Program-made: the position numbers and the translations under genes | Notes under the pieces: model-generated | Databases searched by the model: none | What the model saw: only the letters and a program-made list of their open reading frames with translations | Told to the model about the DNA's origin: nothing | Part shown: positions 545 to 23,183 of the stretch, in pieces | Layout: each line of letters opens with the position of its first letter | Position numbering within the stretch: the stretch's first letter is position 1 | Virus record (IMG/VR): IMGVR_UViG_3300020190_004753 | Span: 1-24,509 of that record | DNA from: a virus | Direction: 5' to 3' (one strand) | Length of the DNA stretch: 24,509 nucleotides

Positions 545-617
545 TGGTACCGAGTAATGGAATTAAACCATTGACCTTCGTATTGTAAACGATGCTCTAT
601 CGCTGAGCTAACTCGGT
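545..617 (-). tRNA. Degenerate tRNA, anticodon ACA by folding (possibly TAC)
   Basis: At 73 nt this is shorter than its neighbours. The acceptor stem ACCGAGT / ACTCGGT is perfect, CCA is encoded at 545-547, and D-stem GCTC / GAGC and T-stem AATGG / CCATT form. The anticodon stem has only four pairs (TCGT / ACGA) around loop TTACAAT, which reads ACA (Cys codon TGT), an unusual A34 anticodon. Moving the loop by one base would give TAC (Val) but destroys the stem. The D-loop AGCGATA lacks the GG pair and the T-loop is TTTAATT. The first base of the tRNA is the last base of the epimerase stop codon. It may be a decayed or divergent tRNA; the tRNA origin is fairly sure, the identity is not. Confidence 0.75.
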
Positions 618-1384
618 CAAATATATTTACTTAATGTTTCTTTTGTTTTAGACATATCAGCACAAGTATATTCTTGATAGAACGGTCTAATGTTGTCAGG
701 AATAGGTATCTCTCGCACATCACTACCAATTGTATTAGCAACATCTCGAAAACTCATTGGTTTTCCAGTGCCAATATTCCAAATACCACTTTCTTGTACT
801 TTCAAGAACTTTATGTGATAGTTCACAACTTCATCAACATGAATAAAATCACGCCGATATTTTTCACTTTGTTCAAATAGTGTAATGTAACCATCTTTTT
901 CTTTTTGTAGTTTAAATTTTGTAAATGGACTTGCTTGTGAACCTTTGTGTTCTTCACCAGGCCCATAAACATTAAAATAACGAAAACCTTGTACAGTTAT
1001 ATGTGGCGGATCATTTTGTTTAACATATCGCTCAAAAAGATATTTCGACCAAGCATATGGTGTTCGTGGATCAACAGGAGCATCCTCACGAAAATCTGTT
1101 CTTAATCCATAAACAGATGCAGAAGAGGCGTATTGCATATTCACGGCATTATCATAACATGCTTCAAACAATGATACAGAAAAATCATAATTCTGTTTCA
1201 TTATCTTTTCAACATTTGTTTCAGTGGTCGAACTGATAGCACCGAGGTGTATAACCCAATCAAAATCAGAAACATCTGGCAAATCATCAACCCAATCGAA
1301 GCCAACCACTGTATGTTCAGATGGTATAGCACGATACAAATTTGAACCAATAAAACCTTTATAACCTGTCACAAGAATTTTCAT
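617..1384 (-). CDS. hldD: ADP-L-glycero-D-manno-heptose 6-epimerase-like (HldD/RfaD family)
   Basis: A short-chain-dehydrogenase-fold epimerase that in bacteria converts ADP-D-glycero- to ADP-L-glycero-D-manno-heptose, the donor for LPS inner core. The NAD(P)-binding motif GYKGFIG is at residues 7-13, the HldD-like SSTTETN at 51-57, the catalytic Tyr110-xxx-Lys114 pair in YAWSK, and RYFNVYGPGE and QASPFTKF follow in the order expected for HldD. At 255 aa it is shorter than the usual 310 or so, mainly in the C-terminal substrate domain. It overlaps the upstream cupin gene by 4 nt (ATGA). The stop codon TGA donates its last A to the tRNA at 545-617. A related UDP-sugar epimerase is possible, but the heptose neighbours favour HldD. 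Confidence 0.85.
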   Translation of the reverse strand: MKILVTGYKGFIGSNLYRAIPSEHTVVGFDWVDDLPDVSDFDWVIHLGAISSTTETNVEKIMKQNYDFSVSLFEACYDNAVNMQYASSASVYGLRTDFREDAPVDPRTPYAWSKYLFERYVKQNDPPHITVQGFRYFNVYGPGEEHKGSQASPFTKFKLQKEKDGYITLFEQSEKYRRDFIHVDEVVNYHIKFLKVQESGIWNIGTGKPMSFRDVANTIGSDVREIPIPDNIRPFYQEYTCADMSKTKETLSKYI

Positions 1385-1737
1385 TTTTGAGAATCTCCGG
1401 GAGCAATGCGATAATTATCTTCAACTGAATCAGGCGTACTTACTTCAATAATAGTGCCTTCTTCAATACAAATGACTTGATGTGGCAACAAAGGCGGATT
1501 GTGCCAAGTGTCACCTTCAGAAAGATACTTTACTTGTTCTTCAGCCGTTTTTGTATCAATTGTTTTAACAATAAATTTACCACTTAAAATATACCAAGTT
1601 TCATCTTTCTCGGCGTGAAAGTGCATACTGAACTTTGCATCTTTATTGAAATGCAAAAACTTACCGCAATACTTATCGTTGGTACACCAAATCTTTTCGT
1701 GACCCCAACCTTTCTTAACAAACCCACTCAATCGCAT
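1381..1737 (-). CDS. Single-domain cupin protein
   Basis: A 118-aa small beta-barrel with cupin motif 1 as H39-x-H41-x4-E46-x6-G53 and a second motif containing G75 and H86, so a metal site appears intact. It resembles the mannose-6-phosphate isomerase type II C-terminal cupins and other sugar-nucleotide-associated cupins. It lies between the heptose kinase and the epimerase, overlapping both by a few bases, so it is translated with them. It may be an isomerase or epimerase acting on a sugar phosphate, possibly replacing a missing heptose step, but the substrate cannot be read from the sequence. Confidence 0.75.
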   Translation of the reverse strand: MRLSGFVKKGWGHEKIWCTNDKYCGKFLHFNKDAKFSMHFHAEKDETWYILSGKFIVKTIDTKTAEEQVKYLSEGDTWHNPPLLPHQVICIEEGTIIEVSTPDSVEDNYRIAPGDSQK

Positions 1738-2498
1738 ATCTCTTCCAATTTTGGCGCATAAACGCCCATATGTTGCACTGTTATTGAACTTGCTTTAATT
1801 GCAAATTGAATTGCCTTTTCAATATTAGATTCTAACAAATATTTGTATGCCAATGCGGCAAGAAATGTATCTCCTGCGCCTGTGACATCTACCACTTCAA
1901 CTTTAGGCGCTGGCAAAACTTTTCGATCAAACATAGCACCATCACGACCAAGAGTAACAATTAGTTTATTAGAAAATGTGGATGTTTGTATTGCATCATA
2001 TTCAATAGAATTTATTTTAACAAAACAACCATCGAATCTATGTAACTCTTTTTTCTTTGTATCAATAAAAATTGGACCTTCAAAAAAATTTCTTAGGTCT
2101 TTAATCAAATCATAAGTAACAGAACCTTTATTGTAATCAGAAATGACAATTGCATCATAGCGATTTAAATTAAAGTCAGAATTTAGTTTAACAGCAATGC
2201 AATTATAATCTTCATCGATTCGCACAATATGTTGGCGACTTCTTAAATCAATTAATCTAGTTTTAGTTGATGTACCGCCATGAAGATATTTTACATCACA
2301 ACCAAAAGTTTTTAAATTCTCTAGTACATTACCAGCCATACCAGGCTTAGTTTCTTCATTAGAAAATTTAAAAACAGGAACTGGTGCTTCAGGAGATATT
2401 CTATCAACCATACCGTATCGATAAACATCGATACAATCATCACCGATGAGCAATATCTTGTATTTTTTGCGTAGTTGAATAACCTTCGATTCGGTCAT
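1728..2498 (-). CDS. hldE: D-glycero-beta-D-manno-heptose-7-phosphate kinase-like (HldE N-domain, PfkB fold)
   Basis: A PfkB/ribokinase-family kinase. The N-terminus LLIGDDCIDVYRYG followed by RISPEAPVPV (34-42) is typical of the kinase half of HldE, which phosphorylates heptose-7-phosphate at O1. GMAGNV (53-58) and VTGAGDTF (around 205-212, with catalytic Asp210) are present. It is 256 aa against roughly 315 for the bacterial domain, with shortened lid and middle parts. It is separate from the adenylyltransferase domain and placed after it, opposite to the bacterial fusion order. Its ATG lies inside the upstream gene, giving a 59-nt overlap; no later in-frame ATG keeps the conserved N-terminus, so this start is accepted. 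Confidence 0.85.
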   Translation of the reverse strand: MTESKVIQLRKKYKILLIGDDCIDVYRYGMVDRISPEAPVPVFKFSNEETKPGMAGNVLENLKTFGCDVKYLHGGTSTKTRLIDLRSRQHIVRIDEDYNCIAVKLNSDFNLNRYDAIVISDYNKGSVTYDLIKDLRNFFEGPIFIDTKKKELHRFDGCFVKINSIEYDAIQTSTFSNKLIVTLGRDGAMFDRKVLPAPKVEVVDVTGAGDTFLAALAYKYLLESNIEKAIQFAIKASSITVQHMGVYAPKLEEICD

Positions 2499-2853
2499 AA
2501 TAAATCACTTTCTTGCAATATGTCTCACCGATAACTGATTTACCTCTGTAATCAGAACCTTTAACCATTATATCAGAATTTTTTACAAGTTCAATTAGTT
2601 CTTCATCAGTATCAAAAACAATTACCTGATCAACCGATTTCAAAGCCTCGAGCATAGTCTTACGCTCAAATTCATTATTGATTGGTCGAGATAAACCTTT
2701 TTTGGTTTTGATTCTTCGATCCGTATCAATAGCAACTGTCAAATAATTACCAAGAGATTTCGCATATTCAAGTAACTTTATATGCCCAATATGCAGAATA
2801 TCAAAAGTACCGTTAACGATTACTTTGTTGTCTTTTTTTTCAGTCAACCACAT
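2440..2853 (-). CDS. hldE: D-glycero-beta-D-manno-heptose 1-phosphate adenylyltransferase-like (HldE C-domain)
   Basis: A stand-alone nucleotidyltransferase of 137 aa corresponding to the C-terminal half of bacterial HldE. It would transfer AMP from ATP to heptose-1-phosphate, making ADP-heptose. VNGTFDILHIGH (residues 13-24) carries the HxGH signature, and a late GYSTTQKI matches the ISTTxxI-type ATP-binding motif of cytidylyltransferase-like enzymes. It overlaps the upstream carboxypeptidase gene by 14 nt and the downstream kinase by 59 nt, so the four sugar genes look like one translationally coupled block. Glycerol-3-phosphate cytidylyltransferase is the main alternative, less likely given the kinase next door. 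Confidence 0.87.
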   Translation of the reverse strand: MWLTEKKDNKVIVNGTFDILHIGHIKLLEYAKSLGNYLTVAIDTDRRIKTKKGLSRPINNEFERKTMLEALKSVDQVIVFDTDEELIELVKNSDIMVKGSDYRGKSVIGETYCKKVIYYDRIEGYSTTQKIQDIAHR

Positions 2854-3580
2854 AGTATGTATGTTGATAGTTATAGGTAGCTATAAATTCAGCTTCAGGT
2901 ATTCGTGTTTTGGTGTTTTTACTGCCTAAAACAATTACAACTCTTTTTCCAATTTCAGTATTTAACATCATCACAATACAACCACCAGCTGGTGTTGTCC
3001 ACCCAGTTTTGCTTACTATGAAAGTATGTCGCTGACCAATAATTGGATTTGTGTTGCGAAAAAAGAACCATTTTTTCTGTATTTTAATTTGTATCACAGG
3101 CGTTTGACTTGCCTGTACAATTTCAGGATATTCTTTGGCTGCCAAAACTAATCGCACTAACTCCTCTGCGGTACTAATATTCATCGGACTAAGACCTGTT
3201 GCTTCAACAAACTTAGAATTTTTCATGCCAAGTTTTTCGGCTTTAAGATTCATATTATAAACACATTGAGATTTGCCACCTGGAAATTTATCACATAACA
3301 AAATTGCAGATTCGTTATTGGAACCAACAAGTGACATTTGTATATGTTGTGCTCGTGTAAACTTTCCTATCTTTTCGTTTAAATCTTGTTTAGCGTCTAA
3401 TACAACCATAGCAGACATGAGTTTTGTAATAGATGCAATAGACCTAACTTCACTGTGATTTTCACCTTGAATAATAGCACCGTTTTCATTTGTAACAAGC
3501 CAACTTTGTGCTGTAATTGGTTGTGAATAAGAAAGCGATGTTAAAATTATTAGTGTAAGTGTGATTAGTTTACTAAACAT
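2840..3580 (-). CDS. Secreted DD-carboxypeptidase/endopeptidase (peptidase S11, PBP7-like)
   Basis: A 246-aa penicillin-binding-protein-fold serine peptidase. Residues 1-25 form a signal peptide (basic start, hydrophobic core, likely cleavage after TAQ or nearby), so it should act in the periplasm. The three catalytic motifs are visible: Ser50-xx-Lys53 (SITK), Ser87-Asn-Asn89, and Lys191-Thr-Gly193. This family removes the terminal D-Ala of peptidoglycan stems or cuts DD-crosslinks. The protein lacks the C-terminal amphipathic-helix domain of larger DacA enzymes. It is the first gene of the heptose block and may remodel the wall during infection or lysis. Confidence 0.88.
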   Translation of the reverse strand: MFSKLITLTLIILTSLSYSQPITAQSWLVTNENGAIIQGENHSEVRSIASITKLMSAMVVLDAKQDLNEKIGKFTRAQHIQMSLVGSNNESAILLCDKFPGGKSQCVYNMNLKAEKLGMKNSKFVEATGLSPMNISTAEELVRLVLAAKEYPEIVQASQTPVIQIKIQKKWFFFRNTNPIIGQRHTFIVSKTGWTTPAGGCIVMMLNTEIGKRVVIVLGSKNTKTRIPEAEFIATYNYQHTYYVVD

Positions 3581-4093: not shown

Positions 4094-4390
4094 TTACTTT
4101 AATGTAGCAGTATAGGCCGCAATATTTTTAATATCAGCGGGCGTCAGTTGTGCAGCAAAACCCCACATCAAAGCGCTTTGTGGTCCAACCTGTTCTTTAT
4201 TTTTGTAGGCAGTGAGTTTTTTCTCAATGGTAGCCGCAGGCTGTCCTGCCAACTTAGGACCTGTACCGCCGCCGGCCTGTGCGCCATGACAGGCAATACA
4301 GGTGCCGTATTTAATTTTACCTGCTGCTACATCTTGCGCCATAGCAGGAACAGATAAAAATACTAAACTTGTTAATACAATCAATTTCAT
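4094..4390 (-). CDS. Secreted class I cytochrome c
   Basis: A 98-aa precursor with a signal peptide ending at AMA (about residue 18) and a mature domain of about 80 aa. The haem site is Cys31-Ile-Ala-Cys34-His35, and Met75 in SALMWGF is the likely distal ligand, as in cytochrome c553 or c4-like domains. GPKLAGQ follows the haem motif as is typical for proteobacterial examples. It would be exported and need host Ccm maturation, then shuttle electrons in the periplasm. An AAGGA ribosome site lies 8 nt upstream, and a promoter is visible at 4430-4459. A phage-borne cytochrome c is unusual. Confidence 0.92.
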   Translation of the reverse strand: MKLIVLTSLVFLSVPAMAQDVAAGKIKYGTCIACHGAQAGGGTGPKLAGQPAATIEKKLTAYKNKEQVGPQSALMWGFAAQLTPADIKNIAAYTATLK

Positions 4391-4429
4391 TTTATTTCCT
4401 TTTAAAAATTAAATTTACTAATACTGTTA

Positions 4430-4459
4430 ATTATAACATAAACATTTTGGTCATGGCAA
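4430..4459 (-). promoter_or_regulatory. Sigma70-type promoter for the cytochrome c-DoxX unit
   Basis: TATAAT (4430-4435) and TTGCCA (4454-4459) are separated by 18 bp on the minus strand, 39 nt ahead of the cytochrome c ATG. The -35 box is also the 3' arm of a hairpin that covers the stop codon of the upstream reductase gene. Confidence 0.7.
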
Positions 4460-4472
4460 CCTTTTATTGCCA
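4454..4472 (-). other. Stop-codon hairpin ahead of the cytochrome promoter
   Basis: TGGCAATAAAAGGTTGCCA forms a six-base-pair stem (TGGCAA / TTGCCA) with the TAA stop of the saccharopine-dehydrogenase-like gene in its 5' part. There is no T-run after it, so it is not a standard terminator. Its downstream arm coincides with the -35 box of the next promoter. Confidence 0.5.
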
Positions 4473-5477
4473 ATAACATTGACTATATTGACTGGACCAA
4501 ATGCTGTCATAATCAATATCTTCAATTCTTACCCATCCACGTTGATTGTCCAAAGCACCTTTTTGCCATGCATCTAATACCGCCATGACACCATCACCTG
4601 TGGTGCGCTGTATGGCAGTGGCACCGGGCACACTTTCAATGCGTTTGCTGTATTGCTTGATGTACATTTGCTCGTCTATAAGTCCTGTGACATTGATCAG
4701 AATATACACGTAGTCTTGGTTTGTTTGTGGCACAGATTTGTTAAATATTTCAACAAAACGCCGGAAATTTGAGGCCAAGCCAAGATCATCTTTCAGGAAC
4801 TTCATTAATGCCCAGTGTCCGGGATAACGCAGAGTTTTGTAATCAACTGATTGCGCTCGCCCTTGCCAAGTATCAGCCATACTGCCTAAGCCTCCGCTGG
4901 TGGTTGCGGCCTCTAGCAGTTGTCCTTCAAAATTGACCCGTTCCAGTTCTTCAAGAGGATCAAGCATGACTCTTTGCTGTTTGCGTATGGCCGGACAAGG
5001 ATGTATGTATTCGTTGATCAAACCTTCAGTGTTCCAAGTTCGGTAATAGCCCATGTGATTATTGGTGTTTGCAGGCAAGGCTCCTACACGAATCTCAATG
5101 TCTTCCACTTGATCAAACTGAGCAGCCATGTGGTTGGCGATCACGCTGACCATACCAGGAGCAAGTCCACATTGTGTGACGAATCGTGCGTTGTTCAAAG
5201 TCTTTACATAGTTGGTGACATCAACGCTTTCTGTGAGATCAAAATAATCAACGCCATGTTCGTTACATATCCCAGCGATCTGTTTGTTCAAAAAGAACGG
5301 AGTCGATGCCAACACGCCATCTACCTGTGCAATAATCCTGTGCAATGTGTCACGGTCATTGAGATCATGGCCATTGGTCTGATCATAGCCTGCAACCGCA
5401 AAGTCAGGATTTTGAGATAAGATATTTTGGACATAAGATCCAATATGACCTAGGCCCAACACAGCTAATTTTTTCAT
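4464..5477 (-). CDS. Saccharopine dehydrogenase-like NAD(P)-dependent reductase
   Basis: A 337-aa enzyme with an N-terminal Rossmann motif GLGHIG (residues 8-13), then a central catalytic part containing CGLAPGM and TSGGLGSMADTW, and KTLRYPGH, all typical of the saccharopine dehydrogenase / lysine-6-dehydrogenase family. Members reduce or oxidise imines of lysine-derived or polyamine compounds; the exact substrate cannot be assigned. The gene is visibly richer in G+C than its flanking genes, which suggests a bacterial origin. It overlaps the upstream 78-aa gene by 4 nt and is two genes from the DadA-like oxidase, so joint action on an amino acid is plausible. Confidence 0.8.
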   Translation of the reverse strand: MKKLAVLGLGHIGSYVQNILSQNPDFAVAGYDQTNGHDLNDRDTLHRIIAQVDGVLASTPFFLNKQIAGICNEHGVDYFDLTESVDVTNYVKTLNNARFVTQCGLAPGMVSVIANHMAAQFDQVEDIEIRVGALPANTNNHMGYYRTWNTEGLINEYIHPCPAIRKQQRVMLDPLEELERVNFEGQLLEAATTSGGLGSMADTWQGRAQSVDYKTLRYPGHWALMKFLKDDLGLASNFRRFVEIFNKSVPQTNQDYVYILINVTGLIDEQMYIKQYSKRIESVPGATAIQRTTGDGVMAVLDAWQKGALDNQRGWVRIEDIDYDSIWSSQYSQCYWQ

Positions 5478-5710
5478 ATTTTATCATCCATTTCAAATTG
5501 TTCTAACATACGATCTCTATCAGCAAATTCTTTATCTTTATTGGCTCTCCACCATTCGAGATACTTATTCCAATCGCTATCGAACTTTTCGCGTTGCAAG
5601 ATTTCTGTAATTTTCGTGCAGGGTATAATGTAGTTTTCTGACAACATAGATCGAACAGCTGCCCATTGACAATGCCAATACATTATTATAATTACTGCTA
5701 AATTTTCCAT
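5474..5710 (-). CDS. Hypothetical protein, 78 aa
   Basis: No family recognised. The N-terminal 15 residues are hydrophobic (ENLAVIIIMYWHCQWAAV), the rest is charged with several Trp (EWWRANKDKEF). The gene is one nucleotide from the DadA-like gene and overlaps the reductase by 4 nt (ATGA), so it is translated in the middle of this metabolic unit. It could be a small membrane-attached accessory protein. Confidence 0.6.
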   Translation of the reverse strand: MENLAVIIIMYWHCQWAAVRSMLSENYIIPCTKITEILQREKFDSDWNKYLEWWRANKDKEFADRDRMLEQFEMDDKI

Positions 5711-5711
5711 T

Positions 5712-6884
5712 TTATATAATCTTCGTTATTTGTTTGGCTGTGGCAGGAGCTATAGTCCAACCCAAATGCCCATGGCCAGTATTATAAAAAACTTTAACTG
5801 ATTTAGTACTAGCCCTCACTATAGGCATCATATCAGGTGTCATGGGTCGAAGGCAAGCCCAAGGATTAAACTGATCGGTCTTTAAAGCCGGAAACATGGC
5901 ATGGCACCAATCCAGTAAAGGTCGCACACGGCTCATAGTTATATCTTTATTATATCCTGTAAACTCTGCGGTACCTGCTATGCGTAATCGATCACCTAGA
6001 GTGCTGGTAACGATCTTGCGTTCATCATCTAACAAACTTACACGTGGAGCATATGTTTTAGATTCCTTATCTAATGGAATAGTAACACTATAACCTTTAA
6101 CTGGATAGACGGGTAATCGTTCTCCAATTTCTCGCGCTAAATTTTTGCTGCCAGTGCCGGCACAAACTACTATACGATTATATGCTGGCACCAATTCCTG
6201 TAAAGTAGTATGAGCGCCATAGTAAAACTTCACGCCTTGTTTTTTTAGATATTCAGCCAAACCCATGCAGAACTTGTGTATATCGCCCACACTATCGCTT
6301 TCAGTCCAAGCGCCACCAATGATGCGAGTATTATATCGTAAAGAAGGTTCTATTTCTTTTACTTGATCTGCGGTGCACATTTGCCAGTCACAACCCATGT
6401 GCCGATAGGTTTTACCTTCTAGTTCGGCTGCTTCTAGATATTTGATATCTGTATATACATGTAGTATGCCGCTGCGTGAGTGATCAAACTGTATGCCAGT
6501 TTCATCAATAATATTATTGTAAAGAATGCGGCTTTCAAGCCCTAATAAAATTGTGTCTTGTGTGCGCTGATGACTGGAATTTTCTTGTGTATGTTTGACA
6601 AACTTTAACAACCAAAAAATCATGTCTAAATCAAATCTAGGTCTTATTAACAAAGGCGCATCTGAACGCAGTAGCCATTGCATACCACGTTGTATATTTG
6701 GCCATGTAGTCCAAACTTGACTATTGCTAACACTGATCTGACCTCCGTTAGCACGGCTGGTTTGCATACCTGCATAGTGTTCGCTATCATAAACAGTAAC
6801 ATCATGGCCCGCTTTGGCCAGGTAGTAGGCGGTGGTAAGACCAACAACTCCTGCACCAATTATCGCACAAAAATATTTTGTCAT
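5712..6884 (-). CDS. dadA: D-amino-acid dehydrogenase-like FAD oxidoreductase (DadA family)
   Basis: A 390-aa DAO-fold flavoenzyme. The FAD-binding GAGVVG motif is at residues 10-15, with an acidic residue about 20 positions later at the end of strand beta 2 (VTVYDSE). The C-terminal motif GHGHLGW matches the DadA GHG-LGW signature. DadA oxidises D-amino acids (D-Ala best) to 2-oxo acids and ammonia and passes electrons to quinone at the inner membrane. It is about 40 aa shorter than the E. coli enzyme. Glycine oxidase-like activity is the main alternative. It overlaps the upstream 65-aa phage gene by 4 nt, showing it is embedded in the phage genome and not an assembly join at this point. Confidence 0.83.
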   Translation of the reverse strand: MTKYFCAIIGAGVVGLTTAYYLAKAGHDVTVYDSEHYAGMQTSRANGGQISVSNSQVWTTWPNIQRGMQWLLRSDAPLLIRPRFDLDMIFWLLKFVKHTQENSSHQRTQDTILLGLESRILYNNIIDETGIQFDHSRSGILHVYTDIKYLEAAELEGKTYRHMGCDWQMCTADQVKEIEPSLRYNTRIIGGAWTESDSVGDIHKFCMGLAEYLKKQGVKFYYGAHTTLQELVPAYNRIVVCAGTGSKNLAREIGERLPVYPVKGYSVTIPLDKESKTYAPRVSLLDDERKIVTSTLGDRLRIAGTAEFTGYNKDITMSRVRPLLDWCHAMFPALKTDQFNPWACLRPMTPDMMPIVRASTKSVKVFYNTGHGHLGWTIAPATAKQITKII

Positions 6885-10647: not shown

Positions 10648-10956
10648 TCAAAAAGTGTTAAGTGAAGGTTCAAACTCAGCAATGATTTGACGCTCACGCT
10701 GATACGCATTTTTACGACCACGAACAATTTCAATTACTTCGTAGCGAAACTCAGCATTGACATTGTTACGAATAAAATCACAGAAGGCCCAGGCCTTGTT
10801 TTCACGAAAGGCTCGAGATACGTGCTTCTGCCAGCGAATCTTAACAGAACGAACAAAAGCACGACCACAAGCAACAGTCAGACCGATGTAAGAATCACCA
10901 GTGTCCATGCAGGTCACTTGATACAAAACATAGTTACGATCAGATCGCTTTTTCAT
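10648..10956 (-). CDS. GIY-YIG nuclease domain protein, 102 aa
   Basis: A single-domain GIY-YIG-type endonuclease. The first motif is degenerate (YVLYQVT, residues 9-15), YIG is intact at 23-25, Arg41 and His45 lie on the expected catalytic helix (KIRWQKH), and Glu88 in YQRERQIIAEFEPSLN is the metal-binding glutamate. It could be a homing-type or repair-type nuclease. The ATG lies only 6 nt after the -10 box of the promoter at 10963-10991, so the mRNA may be leaderless. No other start keeps the domain complete. Confidence 0.78.
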   Translation of the reverse strand: MKKRSDRNYVLYQVTCMDTGDSYIGLTVACGRAFVRSVKIRWQKHVSRAFRENKAWAFCDFIRNNVNAEFRYEVIEIVRGRKNAYQRERQIIAEFEPSLNTF

Positions 10957-11377: not shown

Positions 11378-11596
11378 TTAACAAGTGATTTTATTTTTTA
11401 ATCCAAAATGTTTAAGTACATATGTTCCAGGTGTTTCGTACTGATGTGCATTAATTGTAGCAATGTCCGCGCACTCACGAATAATTAACTCTGCAAAAAG
11501 TTCCAAATTATTAGAGTCACCGACCCAGCCTGTACCTTCCGCAGGAATGTAACGAAACCCTGCACGCTTTGCCATGTTGTCTACAAGATCATTCAT
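11378..11596 (-). CDS. FAELIIREC-family phage protein, paralog 1, 72 aa
   Basis: The pattern MNDLVDNMAKRAGF ... LELFAELIIRECADIA ... PGTYVLKHFGL is typical of a very common phage family of unknown function. Two further diverged copies lie at 11903-12139 and 16000-16209. I choose ATG 11596 because it begins at the family's usual N-terminus and overlaps the TGA of the preceding small membrane gene (ATGA); the frame itself is open to 11665. Confidence 0.8.
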   Translation of the reverse strand: MNDLVDNMAKRAGFRYIPAEGTGWVGDSNNLELFAELIIRECADIATINAHQYETPGTYVLKHFGLKNKITC

Positions 11597-11703
11597 ATAA
11601 ACATTGCTGCAAAAAATACCAAAATACCAATGGCCAAAAAAGCCAATTGTAGGCATATCAAACAAACAAAGGTAAGAGCATCACCAAAATCTTTAAAGTC
11701 CAT
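11593..11703 (-). CDS. Small single-span membrane protein, 36 aa
   Basis: MDFKDFGDAL is followed by one long hydrophobic stretch to the C-terminus (TFVCLICLQLAFLAIGILV and more). GGTGG lies 4 nt ahead of the ATG, its stop overlaps the next gene by ATGA, and its start overlaps the previous gene by 11 nt. Such tiny membrane proteins are common in phages and easily missed. An adjacent in-frame ATG at 11706 is an alternative start. Confidence 0.5.
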   Translation of the reverse strand: MDFKDFGDALTFVCLICLQLAFLAIGILVFFAAMFI

Positions 11704-11902: not shown

Positions 11903-12139
11903 TTACAGACATTCTTTAACTTCGAAATGTTGTTTAATCCAAGTACCTGCTCTAATGCCTCGCACAAATACGGTTCGTTCGTCAAGTTCACGGGCACACT
12001 CCCGTACAATTAACTCAGCAAATGTATTATAGGCAGTAATAGACTGTTCAGCAGTAAAATTAGTAGGATAAAGATGGCCGTTATCGAGCACGTGGTATAG
12101 TCCAGCCTGTTCAGCAAGTTTTTTAATTTGTTCGTTCAT
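11903..12139 (-). CDS. FAELIVREC-family phage protein, paralog 2, 78 aa
   Basis: MNEQIKKLAEQAG ... TFAELIVRECAREL ... GTWIKQHFEV matches the same family as the genes at 11378-11596 and 16000-16209. Function is unknown. GGAGG is 7 nt ahead of the ATG, but the CCGGAGGT that contains it is exactly complementary to a site 70 nt upstream in a long structured leader, so its translation may be controlled. Confidence 0.82.
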   Translation of the reverse strand: MNEQIKKLAEQAGLYHVLDNGHLYPTNFTAEQSITAYNTFAELIVRECARELDERTVFVRGIRAGTWIKQHFEVKECL

Positions 12140-12174
12140 TCTTATACCTCCGGCTTCTACTTAGGAAAAAATTT

Positions 12175-12207
12175 GGACTCCGGAGCTTTTTTTGAAGCTC
12201 GTAGTCC
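12175..12207 (-). terminator. Terminator-like attenuator hairpin in the leader
   Basis: On the minus strand the outer stem is GGACT / AGTCC (5 bp) and the inner stem GAGCTT / AAGCTC (6 bp), with a small internal loop and a 6-nt A-rich apical loop. Three A and then T6 follow (12166-12174). The gap before the T-run weakens it as a terminator, but the position inside a leader fits attenuation. Confidence 0.55.
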
Positions 12208-12274
12208 ACAGAAATTTTGAATCCGGAGGTTTTTTTCAAGAGAGAAAATAGAAAGCGCAAGTGAATCCTTTAGT

Positions 12275-12302
12275 GGATCCCTTAACATCCAGTAAGGGAT
12301 CC
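12275..12302 (-). other. Perfect 10-bp hairpin in the leader
   Basis: GGATCCCTTA and TAAGGGATCC pair perfectly around an 8-nt loop (12285-12292). It begins about 14 nt into the transcript predicted from the TATAAT at 12316-12321, so it would cap the 5' end of the leader. It could protect the message or be part of the switch. Confidence 0.7.
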
Positions 12303-12315
12303 TTAATCCAAATAT

Positions 12316-12324
12316 ATTATACCA
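12316..12324 (-). promoter_or_regulatory. Extended -10 promoter (TGGTATAAT)
   Basis: The minus strand reads TGGTATAAT, a consensus extended -10 element. The nearest TTGCCA lies 20 bp upstream, too far for a good -35 box, so promoter activity would rest on the TGn motif. It would start transcription near 12309, giving the structured leader. Confidence 0.6.
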
Positions 12325-12358
12325 CCCTCTACTGTAATGTGTGGCAATAGTGAGCTGC

Positions 12359-12559
12359 TTAGCTCTTTACCTGCTTTACAAACTTATGTTCTAGAATTAC
12401 ACGATCACGCACAGCGCCATAGACCTCTACAGGAGATTCTAGTACTACATGGTGGCTCACTTCGCCACCATACTTTACACGAGAGAGCTCTACACGACCC
12501 GCCACAGGGATTGAACCCATGTACAGACCCTTTACTTGTAGACCTTCAAGATTCCACAT
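12359..12559 (-). CDS. Conserved small phage protein, 66 aa
   Basis: MWNLEGLQVKGLYMGSIPVAG then VELSRVKYGGEVSHHVVLE and VYGAVRDRVILEHKFV form a compact beta-rich protein of a type recurring in tailed phages, function unknown. Its ATG shares one base with the TAA of the Lys/Ala-rich gene (TAATG), so the two are coupled. Confidence 0.75.
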   Translation of the reverse strand: MWNLEGLQVKGLYMGSIPVAGRVELSRVKYGGEVSHHVVLESPVEVYGAVRDRVILEHKFVKQVKS

Positions 12560-14094: not shown

Positions 14095-14119
14095 ATCAAT
14101 CCTTAATCAGTATGTATGG

Positions 14120-14148
14120 ATTGTATGGCAGAATGCGGCAATTGTCAA
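14120..14148 (-). promoter_or_regulatory. Sigma70 promoter (TTGACA-17-TACAAT), module E
   Basis: TTGACA at 14143-14148 and TACAAT at 14120-14125, spacer 17 bp, 25 nt ahead of the 87-aa gene. The stretch after the -35 box (ATTGCCGC...GCCA) is shared with modules A and D. Confidence 0.88.
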
Positions 14149-14170
14149 GGGTAAAAATGGAGGTTTTGCT

Positions 14171-14186
14171 GTTGTTTTTGAGCAAC
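14171..14186 (-). other. Repeated stem-loop, module E
   Basis: GTTGCTCAAAAACAAC on the minus strand, 22 nt upstream of the module E -35 box. Unlike the other copies it does not touch a stop codon; it sits alone in the 202-nt gene-free stretch 14095-14296, of which the rest shows no gene. Confidence 0.62.
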
Positions 14187-14284
14187 ATTGTGGCAGTTTT
14201 GTATACACTTTGGTGAAGTTAGTACACACTTGCACTATAATTCATCTGTGCTTTTATACAGAGAATTCGCTATTTTTACTCTAA

Positions 14285-14300
14285 GTAGGTTACTACCTAC
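14285..14300 (-). other. Stop-codon hairpin of the Mom-like gene
   Basis: GTAGGT / ACCTAC is a perfect 6-bp stem with a 4-nt loop; the TAG stop at 14297-14299 is inside the 5' arm. Only TT follows, so a terminator is possible but weak. Confidence 0.5.
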
Positions 14301-15641: not shown

Positions 15642-16003
15642 ACTAGATTTGCTGCTTTTTTATTGCGTTCTTCATCACTCATTTCCAAATCTCTTTGAGC
15701 ACGATCCGGTTGTCGCAATTGATCGTATTTTGATCGTTCGGGATACTGTTTTTGTACGGTCTTAATTACAATCCAAGTTAAAAACGCCATACTAATGACA
15801 GCACCGTGACCAAATACATTGTAGCCTAGATAATACAATTCGCCAGTATACAATGAAAATGCCAGTGCCCAAAAGCATCCTAGCCAGATACTAATAATGT
15901 ACTTAATTTGCATTGGCGCATTTCTTAGACCATTAAAGTTTGGATCTAATAATTGATAAAAAGTTTTAAACAACAGGCGTAAAAATTTATATAAACCTAT
16001 CAC
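15638..16003 (-). CDS. Two-span membrane protein, 121 aa
   Basis: Two hydrophobic segments (about residues 34-52 and 62-82) follow an amphipathic N-terminus; the C-terminal 35 residues are charged and cytoplasmic-looking (SKYDQLRQPDRAQRDLEMSD). No family recognised. It overlaps both neighbours by 4 nt. Confidence 0.65.
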   Translation of the reverse strand: MIGLYKFLRLLFKTFYQLLDPNFNGLRNAPMQIKYIISIWLGCFWALAFSLYTGELYYLGYNVFGHGAVISMAFLTWIVIKTVQKQYPERSKYDQLRQPDRAQRDLEMSDEERNKKAANLV

Positions 16004-16209
16004 TTTGTAACTCCAAAATGTTTTTGAATTATACTGACAGCATCTTTAACACGAAGCTCTTCATTAAATTCTTTTAAAACATTACAAGATTCTTGAATAA
16101 TTAACTCGGCAAACTTTTGCGAATCAAAATGTAATTGACCGTCAATTAAATAACCATCAATTCGATGACTCCAGCATTGTTTTTCAAGTTCTTTGATTCG
16201 TTGGTTCAT
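16000..16209 (-). CDS. FAELIIQES-family phage protein, paralog 3, 69 aa
   Basis: MNQRIKELEKQCW ... QKFAELIIQESCNVL ... DAVSIIQKHFGV shows the same three-part layout as paralogs 1 and 2, but the Arg-Glu-Cys core has become Gln-Glu-Ser. Function unknown. It overlaps both neighbours by 4 nt. Confidence 0.78.
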   Translation of the reverse strand: MNQRIKELEKQCWSHRIDGYLIDGQLHFDSQKFAELIIQESCNVLKEFNEELRVKDAVSIIQKHFGVTK

Positions 16210-18238: not shown

Positions 18239-18302
18239 TTAGCGGACATCACGCCTTTCTAAAATATATTGTAATTGAGTTTCAACTTTCATTTAGCGGA
18301 CA
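18195..18302. repeat. Exact 54-bp tandem duplication
   Basis: 18195-18248 and 18249-18302 are identical. The unit covers the end of the aldolase gene (GTCCGC TAAATG junction) and the first codons of the coiled-coil gene. As 54 is 18 codons, the frame is unchanged. Confidence 0.95.
18239..18292 (-). pseudogene. 17-codon minigene left by the 54-bp duplication
   Basis: From the ATG that overlaps the aldolase stop, the frame reads MKVETQLQYILERRDVR and stops at TAA, immediately followed by the ATG of the full coiled-coil gene. It is a truncated copy and may act only as a translated leader. Confidence 0.6.
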
Positions 18303-18927
18303 ATACTATCTTACAAATATGTTCTAATCGTTCAATATGTTCAAATGCACGCCATGGGCTAGTATCTACAGCAACAACACCATGTCTATCTAAGCCAACA
18401 ATGTTATATTGAATATCACCAGTTTTTTTATTAAGACCAATATTTTCTACACAAGCATCAGCTAATTCTTGTGAAATTGGTGGAATTAATGGCACATTTG
18501 GTGCTACTGAGGTATATCGACTAAGTTCTGGAAACTCTTTTGATAAATCTTGTAAATTAATTCCAGCATATAGTGCTGAAATAGTATATGTTGGATGTAA
18601 ATGCAATACAACACGCACTTCAGAATTAATATTGCTTTGAAGTGCTAAATGTAATGGCAATTCACCAGATGGTTTAAGTTTTTCACTAATATCAGTATAT
18701 GGCACTTCTTCATAATCATCAATCATAAATGGCGGCACTGCTGATAATATTGTATTTAATTTAATTTTTTTAAACATCTCTGGCTGCAAAGTTTGTTTGC
18801 GAATACCAGATGGTGTTATGTAAAAATGGTTTCGATCATGCCAACGAATACTGGCATTACCATCACGCGCTGTGATCCAATTTCTTTTATATGCTTCTTG
18901 AAATAATTCTGAGACAGTTTCTAACAT
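18289..18927 (-). CDS. Class II aldolase/adducin-family protein
   Basis: A 212-aa zinc enzyme of the L-fuculose-phosphate aldolase / methylthioribulose-phosphate dehydratase family. GNASIR (23-28), TPSG (38-41), SGELPLH with catalytic Glu89, the zinc pair His109 and His111 in LHLHPTY, and His182 in LDRHGVV are all in place, so it should be active. It would cleave or dehydrate a phosphorylated sugar in the cytoplasm; the substrate is not evident. It overlaps the coiled-coil gene by 4 nt. A carbohydrate role would fit the heptose genes elsewhere in the window. Confidence 0.83.
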   Translation of the reverse strand: MLETVSELFQEAYKRNWITARDGNASIRWHDRNHFYITPSGIRKQTLQPEMFKKIKLNTILSAVPPFMIDDYEEVPYTDISEKLKPSGELPLHLALQSNINSEVRVVLHLHPTYTISALYAGINLQDLSKEFPELSRYTSVAPNVPLIPPISQELADACVENIGLNKKTGDIQYNIVGLDRHGVVAVDTSPWRAFEHIERLEHICKIVLSAK

Positions 18928-18937
18928 TTATTTCTTT

Positions 18938-19126
18938 CTACCAATGGTGTATTATGTTTGCTATAATAAAAAGGCATGTAATGATATGTATGATAACCCA
19001 AAATGTTCGGAGAAACAATGCAATACAGGCTTCACGGAGTGTTAAAATAGGTATATCTGGCTTATCGTCATCTGTTTTACCTATCAAATGATTTGTAGCT
19101 CTTGCCCATATTAATCGAAATCTCAT
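18938..19126 (-). CDS. Small membrane protein, 62 aa
   Basis: A basic, polar N-terminus (MRFRLIWARATNHLIGKTDDDKPD) and one C-terminal hydrophobic helix (ALFLRTFWVIIHIITCLFII). The pattern resembles small membrane proteins found in other large phages. ATGA overlap with the gene upstream. Confidence 0.62.
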   Translation of the reverse strand: MRFRLIWARATNHLIGKTDDDKPDIPILTLREACIALFLRTFWVIIHIITCLFIIANIIHHW

Positions 19127-19305
19127 GCGACTTTATTGTCCTCATAATCACGAAGCGCTTGTTTTACATCTCGCTCAAGTTTTTCCCAATCAGTTATAAA
19201 TTCAACATGACCATCTTCATATTCAGTGCGAATACTATGACTGCCCTCAGTAATTTTGGGCCATTTTGTTTTATTTGTTGTGGTTTCTTTTTTTTGTCTT
19301 GGCAT
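19123..19305 (-). CDS. Hypothetical protein, 60 aa
   Basis: A basic N-terminus (MPRQKKETTTNKTKWPKI) followed by a strand pair (HSIRTEYEDGHVEFITDWEKL) and a helix. GAGAGGT lies 5 nt ahead of the ATG. No family recognised. Confidence 0.65.
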   Translation of the reverse strand: MPRQKKETTTNKTKWPKITEGSHSIRTEYEDGHVEFITDWEKLERDVKQALRDYEDNKVA

Positions 19306-19326
19306 ATTTTACCTCTCTGTTACTAA

Positions 19327-19956
19327 TTATTTTTGCAATTCTATTTTTAGATTACCAGACATGGATACACGATCATCATTACTAGTTAAAAATGGATAAA
19401 CTGTATGTTCCATATCTGCATGAAATATAATTAATCTGCCTTCATAAGATTTATCTACATCTAAAATTCTATTAATAATATTAGAAAAACGATTACTAAT
19501 ATTTGCAAATTCAAATTTAGAAGCAACTTTATGATTTGAACCTACTGATGATTTATGATTTAATTCGTCTTCCAATTCATATGGTATTTTTATCCATATT
19601 ACAAAAACTAAATCACCATAATGCCAGTGGATTGGATTATATTCTCCTTTTCTTTGAAAATTAACCCAAGAATTTAAAAAATTTAAATTATAATTTTTTG
19701 AACTATTGCTCTTAAAATAATTGTGGCCAAATACTTTTATGTATTCGTGACAACCATCTAAAATTATTTTTTTAACACCTTTGGGAATCAAATCATAATC
19801 AAACCATTTTTCGTTTTCTATTTGACCAGCCAAATTGTCATTCATAGTTTTTTTAAATTCATATGAATCTATATTCATTAATAATTCATTAAAAAAAGTA
19901 AATGGTAAAGTTGTTTCAATATAACCAACCTTAGTAATAATTTTTTCTTGAAACAT
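19327..19956 (-). CDS. 2OG-Fe(II) oxygenase-like protein
   Basis: A 209-aa double-stranded beta-helix protein of the type found in T4-like cyanophages and other aquatic phages. SWVNFQRKGEYNPIHWHYGD (96-115) holds the first iron-binding His (110 or 112), HADMEHTVYPF has the distal His184, and Arg196 in DDRVSMSGN would bind the 2-oxoglutarate carboxylate. This family hydroxylates proteins or small molecules; the target in phages is not known. A low-complexity insertion (Asn/Ser rich, about 130-160) interrupts the barrel. Confidence 0.75.
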   Translation of the reverse strand: MFQEKIITKVGYIETTLPFTFFNELLMNIDSYEFKKTMNDNLAGQIENEKWFDYDLIPKGVKKIILDGCHEYIKVFGHNYFKSNSSKNYNLNFLNSWVNFQRKGEYNPIHWHYGDLVFVIWIKIPYELEDELNHKSSVGSNHKVASKFEFANISNRFSNIINRILDVDKSYEGRLIIFHADMEHTVYPFLTSNDDRVSMSGNLKIELQK

Positions 19957-19963
19957 TATAGTT

Positions 19964-20989
19964 TTACTTTAAAAATACATCATTAATTTGTCGATTAACA
20001 CGAATAAATGTAGTACACTTACTTAGTTGTTTTAAAGATGGCGCACCAACATATGTGCAAGCACTACGCAAACCACCAAGCAAATTAAGTACCGTATTTT
20101 TTACAGGTCCACGATAAGGTATATCTACAGTTCGACCTTCACTTGATCGATACTCTGCAACGCCGCCGTGATGTTTATTCATAGCAGTATCAGAGCTCAT
20201 GCCGTAAAATTTAACACGGCCATCTTTTACAGTGCTGCCACCTTCATCATGCCCTGCTAGCATACCACCTAACATTACAAAATCAGCACCGGCGCCAAAT
20301 GCCTTAGCAACATCACCAGGACAAACACACCCACCATCAGCAATAATATGCGCTCCAAGACCGTGAGCGGCATCAGCACACTCAATAATGGCGGATAATT
20401 GAGGATAACCAACACCGGTTTGAATACGAGTTGTACAAACCGAACCAGGACCAATGCCCACTTTAACAATATCTGCTCCACGTAATATTAACTCCTGTGT
20501 CATGTCCGCTGTAACAACATTACCAGCAATAATAGTTTTAGAAGGATGGTTTTTTCTTACCTCAGCAACAAAGTCACCAAAGTGTTCAGAATAACCATTT
20601 GCTACATCAATACAAACAAATTGTATTAACGTAAGTACATTTAAAATTTGTTTTAGTTTTATTAAATCTGTGTTACTGGTACCTGTACTAATAGCAAAAT
20701 TAGAATAAGCATTATCAAATAGATTTTGTGAATTTGTATAACTCTCTAAATCATAATTCTTCACAAGACAGGTAAACATATTGTGTTTGTTTAGATTTGC
20801 AAGCATCTGAAAAGTACCAACACCGTCCATATTGGCAGCCATAATTGGTACACCAGACCATTTATAATTACTGTGTTTAAACGTATAGGTGCGAGCTAAA
20901 TCTACCTCTTTTCGACTTGATAACGTAGATCGTTTTGGTCGAATTAAAACATCTCGAAAATCAAATTTAACATCATCTTCAATTCTCAT
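19964..20989 (-). CDS. guaC: GMP reductase (IMPDH/GMPR family)
   Basis: A 341-aa TIM-barrel enzyme that reductively deaminates GMP to IMP with NADPH. The active-site loop [10 protein letters not shown] has catalytic Cys185 and Thr187, aligning with Cys186/Thr188 of E. coli GuaC (347 aa). DGVGTFQM (55-62), ADGGC (217-221), [13 protein letters not shown] (237-249) and EYRSSEGR (from about 280) are conserved, and there is no CBS insertion, which supports GMPR over IMPDH. It lies 7 nt before the oxygenase gene. A phage GMP reductase could redirect host guanine nucleotides to adenine. Confidence 0.9.
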
Positions 20990-22775: not shown

Positions 22776-23183
22776 TTATTTTGTATTGTGAAATTTTATG
22801 TTGTCTTTTCTTACTTTTACCATGATCCAATCATTGTAAAAATTACCAGATTCTAATACTCGCCGATCTATTTGTTCTCTTAATTCCAAATAGGCACAAT
22901 CAGAACGGGTGTTACATAAATGAAGTATTTCGCGGCGAAAATTTTGTTCGCCATGTTCTTGTATGTCCTCAAGGAGAGTTTTGTTTGAACCCCAATAGGT
23001 CAACCAATCAGATGATTTTCTAATCTTTTTTCTTTTGCCTTTGACTGTTTTATAACCAGCCTTTGAAAAGAATTTTTTACCTATGTATTGTTTGCCAGTA
23101 AATGTGTTGGTAATACAGTAAACGTAACCATAAGAATTACCAATATGTTCTTCTAAAAATTCTTGACCTTTGTATATCCACAT
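22776..23183 (-). CDS. GIY-YIG endonuclease, 135 aa
   Basis: GYVYCITN (19-26) and YIG (33-35) are the two defining strands; the basic stretch KTVKGKRKKIRKSSDW and YWGSN (63-67) follow, and a Glu in YLELREQID (100 or 103) supplies the metal ligand. This resembles the phage homing-type GIY-YIG nucleases (Seg-like). It shares one base with the TAA of the zinc-ribbon gene (TAATG). Confidence 0.85.
   Translation of the reverse strand: MWIYKGQEFLEEHIGNSYGYVYCITNTFTGKQYIGKKFFSKAGYKTVKGKRKKIRKSSDWLTYWGSNKTLLEDIQEHGEQNFRREILHLCNTRSDCAYLELREQIDRRVLESGNFYNDWIMVKVRKDNIKFHNTK

Follow-up and report, generated by a model that had tools for sequence, protein, structure and literature searches.

T4-like phages are described as carrying promoter-early stem-loop cassettes (PeSLs; Arbiol 2010; Comeau 2014; cited in PMC4503421, PMC4177764, and PMC5931544), which according to secondary descriptions are present many times over in the shuffled regions of a genome, with their density noted in PMC4503421. 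In T4, RBS-sequestering leader structures are known for e, soc, 49, and I-TevI (PMC3014915). Rapid turnover is typical of the small genes in T4-like variable regions, and it raises the question of how incoming genes come to be expressed. The window (the whole stretch of DNA that was analyzed, 24,509 nucleotides of an IMG/VR virus record) contains a structured, strongly conserved, and unclassified non-coding element, among whose pairings only the 5' hairpin is common to the lineages that carry it. The element and its neighbors comprise the following features:

12948-12920, minus strand: strong sigma70-type promoter TTGACA-17-TATACT, from sequence
12359..12559, minus strand: 66-aa gene, upstream of the element in 4/4 lineages
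12324-12316, minus strand: extended -10 TGGTATAAT, candidate promoter, from sequence
12261..12309, minus strand: conserved core with three copies of a GGATCC-centered word, TAAGGATCCCTTA, TAAGGGATCC, and the degenerate TAAAGGATTC; 88-94% identical to three lineages, with a reciprocal nhmmer alignment to the group-2 arrays (see below)
about 12302-12275, minus strand: 5' hairpin of 10 bp, GGATCCCTTA-loop-TAAGGGATCC, predicted fold
12196..12238, minus strand: tandem repeat 1 (~43 nt), with an A-tract, CCTCCGGA including the anti-SD ACCTCCGG, and the RBS-like GGACTACGAGCT, from copy alignment
12230-12223, minus strand: anti-SD ACCTCCGG, exact complement of the SD, from sequence
12174..12208, minus strand: terminator-like hairpin across the repeat junction, window-specific, MFE -15.5 kcal/mol
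12146..12195, minus strand: tandem repeat 2, with an A-tract, GCTCCGGAG, T6, and then the RBS CCGGAGGT, from copy alignment
12171-12166, minus strand: T6 run after the terminator-like hairpin, from sequence
12153-12146, minus strand: SD/RBS CCGGAGGT, from sequence
11903..12139, minus strand: 78-aa gene of a family of unknown function, first gene after the element in the window

Inspection of the minus-strand sequence recovered, each at its expected position, all the features named by the original prediction, namely the extended -10, the SD with its exact complement, the hairpin followed by T6, and the 10-bp hairpin. For the 176-nt leader, the predicted folding energy is -50.7 kcal/mol (z -3.2 relative to dinucleotide shuffles), and the plus strand of the region folds about equally well in the shuffle comparison. 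The leader had also been called exceptionally long, which holds insofar as its gap of 219 nt is the longest without a tRNA in the window, and is tempered by a second gap of 202 nt at 14095-14296. Strong TTGACA/TATAMT promoters are found throughout the related phages, and the one in the window lies upstream of a 129-aa gene, from where transcription would probably continue across the 129-aa gene and the 66-aa gene and reach the element. A transcription start at the extended -10 is predicted for the window; this promoter has a weaker, partial counterpart in L112 (TGTTAAAAT) and none in L110 or L111.

Homologous elements were identified in three more lineages of uncultivated T4-like phages, L110, L111, and L112/L117. 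Relatives of the 66-aa gene led to L110 (=L099) and L111 (=L100), both with a clearly homologous element, and a pattern scan led to L112 together with the near-identical L117, so that the search for homologous leaders in related phages, proposed by the original prediction, did yield the element, with the switch pairings kept in 0/3. L111 lies on a 145-kb contig (G002) with a T4-type major capsid gene, Gp23, which confirms that the phages carrying the element are T4-like. The element follows the same 66-aa gene in all four lineages (with one extra small gene between them in L111), while the gene after it differs in each, beginning MNEQIKK in the window, MGMFDYV in L110, MWALKII in L111, and MGLDMYL in L112. 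A profile of the 66-aa gene, together with GIY-YIG as a marker, added well over 100 loci. Run across everything gathered, an HMM built on the element was significant only in the four lineages, and a covariance model run on 94 loci returned as significant matches only the members already known. In the records tested, that of L110 and the 145-kb contig of L111, the element is single copy, which rules out a mobile multi-copy repeat.

Elsewhere, the element was not encountered. No family in Rfam 15 matched the leader at the gathering threshold or at a permissive E-value of 5, which bears out, for that collection, the statement that no known class was recognized. Annotated phage and plasmid collections, searched as DNA and protein, gave no relative of the leader or of the 78-aa, 66-aa, or GIY-YIG genes, with a single 25-nt blastn match at E 0.4; the exact three-part pattern occurred in three stretches across IMG/VR, none with a similar architecture; and the bacterial genomes gave no match to the 5' hairpin. 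One MAG contig has a GIY-YIG relative and lacks the element. L122, which matched GGASTACGAGCT, was set aside as a chance match, and L263, L264, L266, L270, and L271 as what look like chance coding matches. The window itself encodes two GIY-YIG proteins (10648-10956 and 22776-23183), one of ~100 aa and the other SegE-like; the ~100-aa protein is 76-83% identical across the clade, with a Pfam GIY-YIG score just below the cut-off.

The original prediction had placed the leader ahead of the 78-aa gene. IMG/VR has many relatives of this gene, for the most part no more than ~50% identical to it, and the leader is absent from all the matches listed. The 63 usable relatives show a median upstream gap of -4 nt to the preceding ORF, and an exact 8-nt complement of the SD region occurs in 0/63. 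The leader is thus not tied to the 78-aa gene, and phages that keep this gene without the pairings, named in advance as evidence against the prediction, do exist. The 78-aa gene is one of three genes of the MNERIRELAEQ/FAELIVRECA small-protein family in the window (11378-11665, 11903-12139, and 16000-16209). This family is very common in uncultivated phages, with at least 346 members confirmed in an IMG/VR scan, and the member tested had no match in PHROGs, Pfam, or the cultured-phage collection. Other gene content of the window includes a minus-strand run of sugar-nucleotide-type genes at 617-3580 (NAD epimerase, cupin, PfkB kinase, and cytidylyltransferase) that forms a split heptose-like pathway, with a D-Ala-D-Ala carboxypeptidase in the same run, and host-like metabolic genes at 4094-6884 and 18289-20989 (cytochrome c, saccharopine dehydrogenase-like, FAD oxidoreductase (DAO), class II aldolase, and GMP reductase/IMPDH).

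Over its first 50 nt, the element of the window is 88-94% identical to those of the other lineages, while 4-fold degenerate sites are 9-52% identical in the 66-aa gene and 40-53% in the GIY-YIG gene; the constraint on the element far exceeds that on neighboring synonymous sites. The 5' hairpin has z scores of -3.2, -4.4, -4.0, and -4.0 across the four lineages. In the relatives, its 5' arm pairs preferentially with the third GGATCC copy to form a hairpin of 10+5 bp (about -24 kcal/mol), while in the window this third copy is degenerate and the 10-bp hairpin is favored. Two of the three variable pairs of the 5' helix remain paired through G-U on the sense strand. The consensus fold of 26 pairs, drawn from four independent sequences only, has no compensatory double change, so that covariation speaks neither for nor against it, and the SD and terminator pairings are missing in the relatives. 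The claim of a structured leader thus survives in the conserved 5' hairpin and fails for the switch half.

These observations are best accommodated, with moderate confidence, by a cis-acting intergenic cassette, single copy and specific to this clade of T4-like phages, that would drive the translation of whichever gene follows, as the element occupies one and the same position in four lineages, each with its own first gene, under strong constraint, and with a conserved 5' hairpin. Its ~50-nt core of GGATCC-centered repeats folds into a strong hairpin and is followed by two ~43-nt repeats with an RBS-like segment at the end of each; the second repeat runs up to the start codon of the gene currently heading a fast-turnover block of small genes. 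Transcription would start at the upstream TTGACA promoter and perhaps, in the window, at the extended -10 too; the 5' hairpin may insulate or protect the downstream mRNA, and the repeat tract may serve as a portable, structure-modulated ribosome site. With a portable ribosome site behind an insulating hairpin, genes recombined into this position would be expressed without signals of their own. In the window, the repeats would have drifted into a form able to attenuate through the terminator and to mask the SD, a local tuning and not a conserved function.

The main rival to the cassette is a DNA operator or iteron array, in which the clustered palindromic words TAAGGATCC(C)TTA, GGGAWCCAC, and CTCYGGAG would be putative sites of a phage DNA-binding protein controlling the operon, and the RNA hairpins by-products of palindromic repeats. 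We regard this as unlikely, though it is the best placed of the alternatives. The repeated sites are clustered at one locus, 4 of the 17 GGATCC words of the 145-kb genome lying within 122 nt inside the element, and that genome has no other clusters of operator-type words, nor is there a recognized regulator for the putative operator. Further evidence comes from a second group of phages, in which CTCTGGAG words and others resembling TAAGGATCCTTA form arrays beyond the gene following GIY-YIG:

L171:6585-6800, L136:6467-6705, L128:6521-6772, L267, and L269: intergenic arrays in which GCCCCCCGTCATTCTCTGGAG alternates with TAAGGWTCC words, located past the small gene that follows GIY-YIG and before the gene that comes next

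These group-2 phages retain GGATCC words, some of them perfect palindromes, and lack the 5' hairpin (z -0.45 to -1.4), which keeps the DNA-site explanation alive, whereas in the four lineages above (group 1) the hairpin arms stay matched. An HMM of either group retrieves the other as its top outside matches, in the same register and on the same strand, and reciprocal nhmmer links the two at E 0.013 one way and 0.06-0.13 the other (0.97 for the window), which is suggestive, and not proof, that group 2 comprises distant relatives of the element. The number of units varies between close relatives within group 2, and in L171 the array is followed by an extended -10 (TGTTATAAT). Neither a GC-skew nor a strand switch marks the element, so that nothing points to a replication origin there.

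Improbable, by comparison with the cassette and the operator array, is the window-specific transcription-attenuation or translation switch of the original prediction, in which ACCTCCGG would alternate between an off state, paired with the SD, and an antiterminator on state, paired with the 3' arm of the terminator. Both alternative pairings are possible in the window sequence, where the 3' half alone has a z of -4.6 against shuffles and the terminator-like hairpin, at -15.5 kcal/mol, is followed by T6. Against this, the three pairings are conserved in none of L110, L111, and L112; in all three the T-run after the homologous hairpin is absent and the 3' half is not significantly better than shuffles (z -1.5, -0.45, and +0.18), and an SD paired in the long transcript is predicted in the window only. 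The riboswitch or attenuator logic is therefore not upheld in the relatives, and Rfam has no match for it. The complement of the SD is 8 nt long in the window and 5 nt in each of the three relatives; at 146 SD-bearing gene starts, pooled from the window phage and related phages and scanned over the upstream 170 nt, its mode is 5 nt and an exact 8 nt is reached at four, because of which the 8-nt complement alone is only marginally unusual.

The tandem repeats largely account for such pairings. In all four lineages, the 3' half is a ~43-nt tandem duplication with scores of 15-25 against shuffle maxima of 8-10 (15 against 9.3 for copy A versus copy B of the window), and this duplication is old. 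Each copy has CCGGA words, often as the self-complementary TCCGGA, together with an RBS-like segment (GGAGTACGAGCT in the relatives), and the last RBS-like segment of the tract is the real RBS. Tandem copies with self-complementary TCCGGA pair by construction, so that the mutually exclusive pairings arise automatically and need no selection. In the genome of L111, seven TCCGGA words also lie within about 1.1 kb at 47777-48863, probably in repetitive coding sequence. A wider proposal, which we consider just as doubtful as the switch, is a new class of phage cis-regulatory RNA, in which a GGATCC-repeat hairpin, open to either of two 5' pairings, would act together with duplicated decoy ribosome sites to regulate whichever gene is inserted behind it, the window lineage having further evolved into a terminator/SD switch.

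Still less probable is a phage small RNA of ~140 nt, starting at the extended -10 and ending at the T6 terminator, with its anti-SD-like ACCTCC acting in trans; promoter, structured body, and terminator do follow in order in the window, but the promoter is not conserved in L110 and L111 and the terminator is missing in all relatives. A small protein gene, suggested by a long frame (GLRIPYW..RDPL..) that is open for 60+ codons in L110, L111, and L112 and largely so in the window, is very improbable and was rejected on its substitution pattern, since the differences between distinct types are mostly non-synonymous (6/6, 5/7-8, and 8-9/9-10) and in the 3' half of L112 the frame is shifted, which means that nucleotides and not a peptide are conserved, and the window frame is without an upstream start codon.

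The intergenic cassette, as the favored explanation, gives these results a wider meaning. A non-coding cassette that is more conserved than its flanking genes, and behind which each lineage has another gene, offers a concrete candidate for expressing newcomers. Tandem repeats of self-complementary words can, moreover, mimic a riboswitch in a single sequence, and a few relatives suffice to distinguish the two.

Among the known systems, bacterial attenuators and riboswitches resemble the window in its terminator-like hairpin with an alternative pairing, and differ from it in that the leader has no Rfam match and its mutually exclusive pairings are not conserved in the relatives. As in the RBS-sequestering leaders of T4, a complementary strand lying upstream could mask the SD of the window; unlike in those leaders, no T4-type late promoter (TATAAATA, one mismatch allowed) occurs within 12137-12330, and the masking is not conserved in the relatives. 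The PeSLs, known by titles and secondary descriptions, are set apart by their multiple copies and adjoining early promoter. Both features were tested, and the element occurs once each in G001 and the 145-kb G002, while its adjoining sigma70-type promoter is not conserved (the extended -10 being weaker in L112 and absent from L110 and L111), for which reasons it is not classed as a PeSL; it is further distinguished by RBS-like repeats in tandem that reach the start codon. With the PeSLs as so described, it shares the form of a short conserved intergenic stem-loop cassette that sits in a block of small, variable genes and stays conserved beside genes that vary (four different downstream genes), and by analogy it would work like these cassettes.
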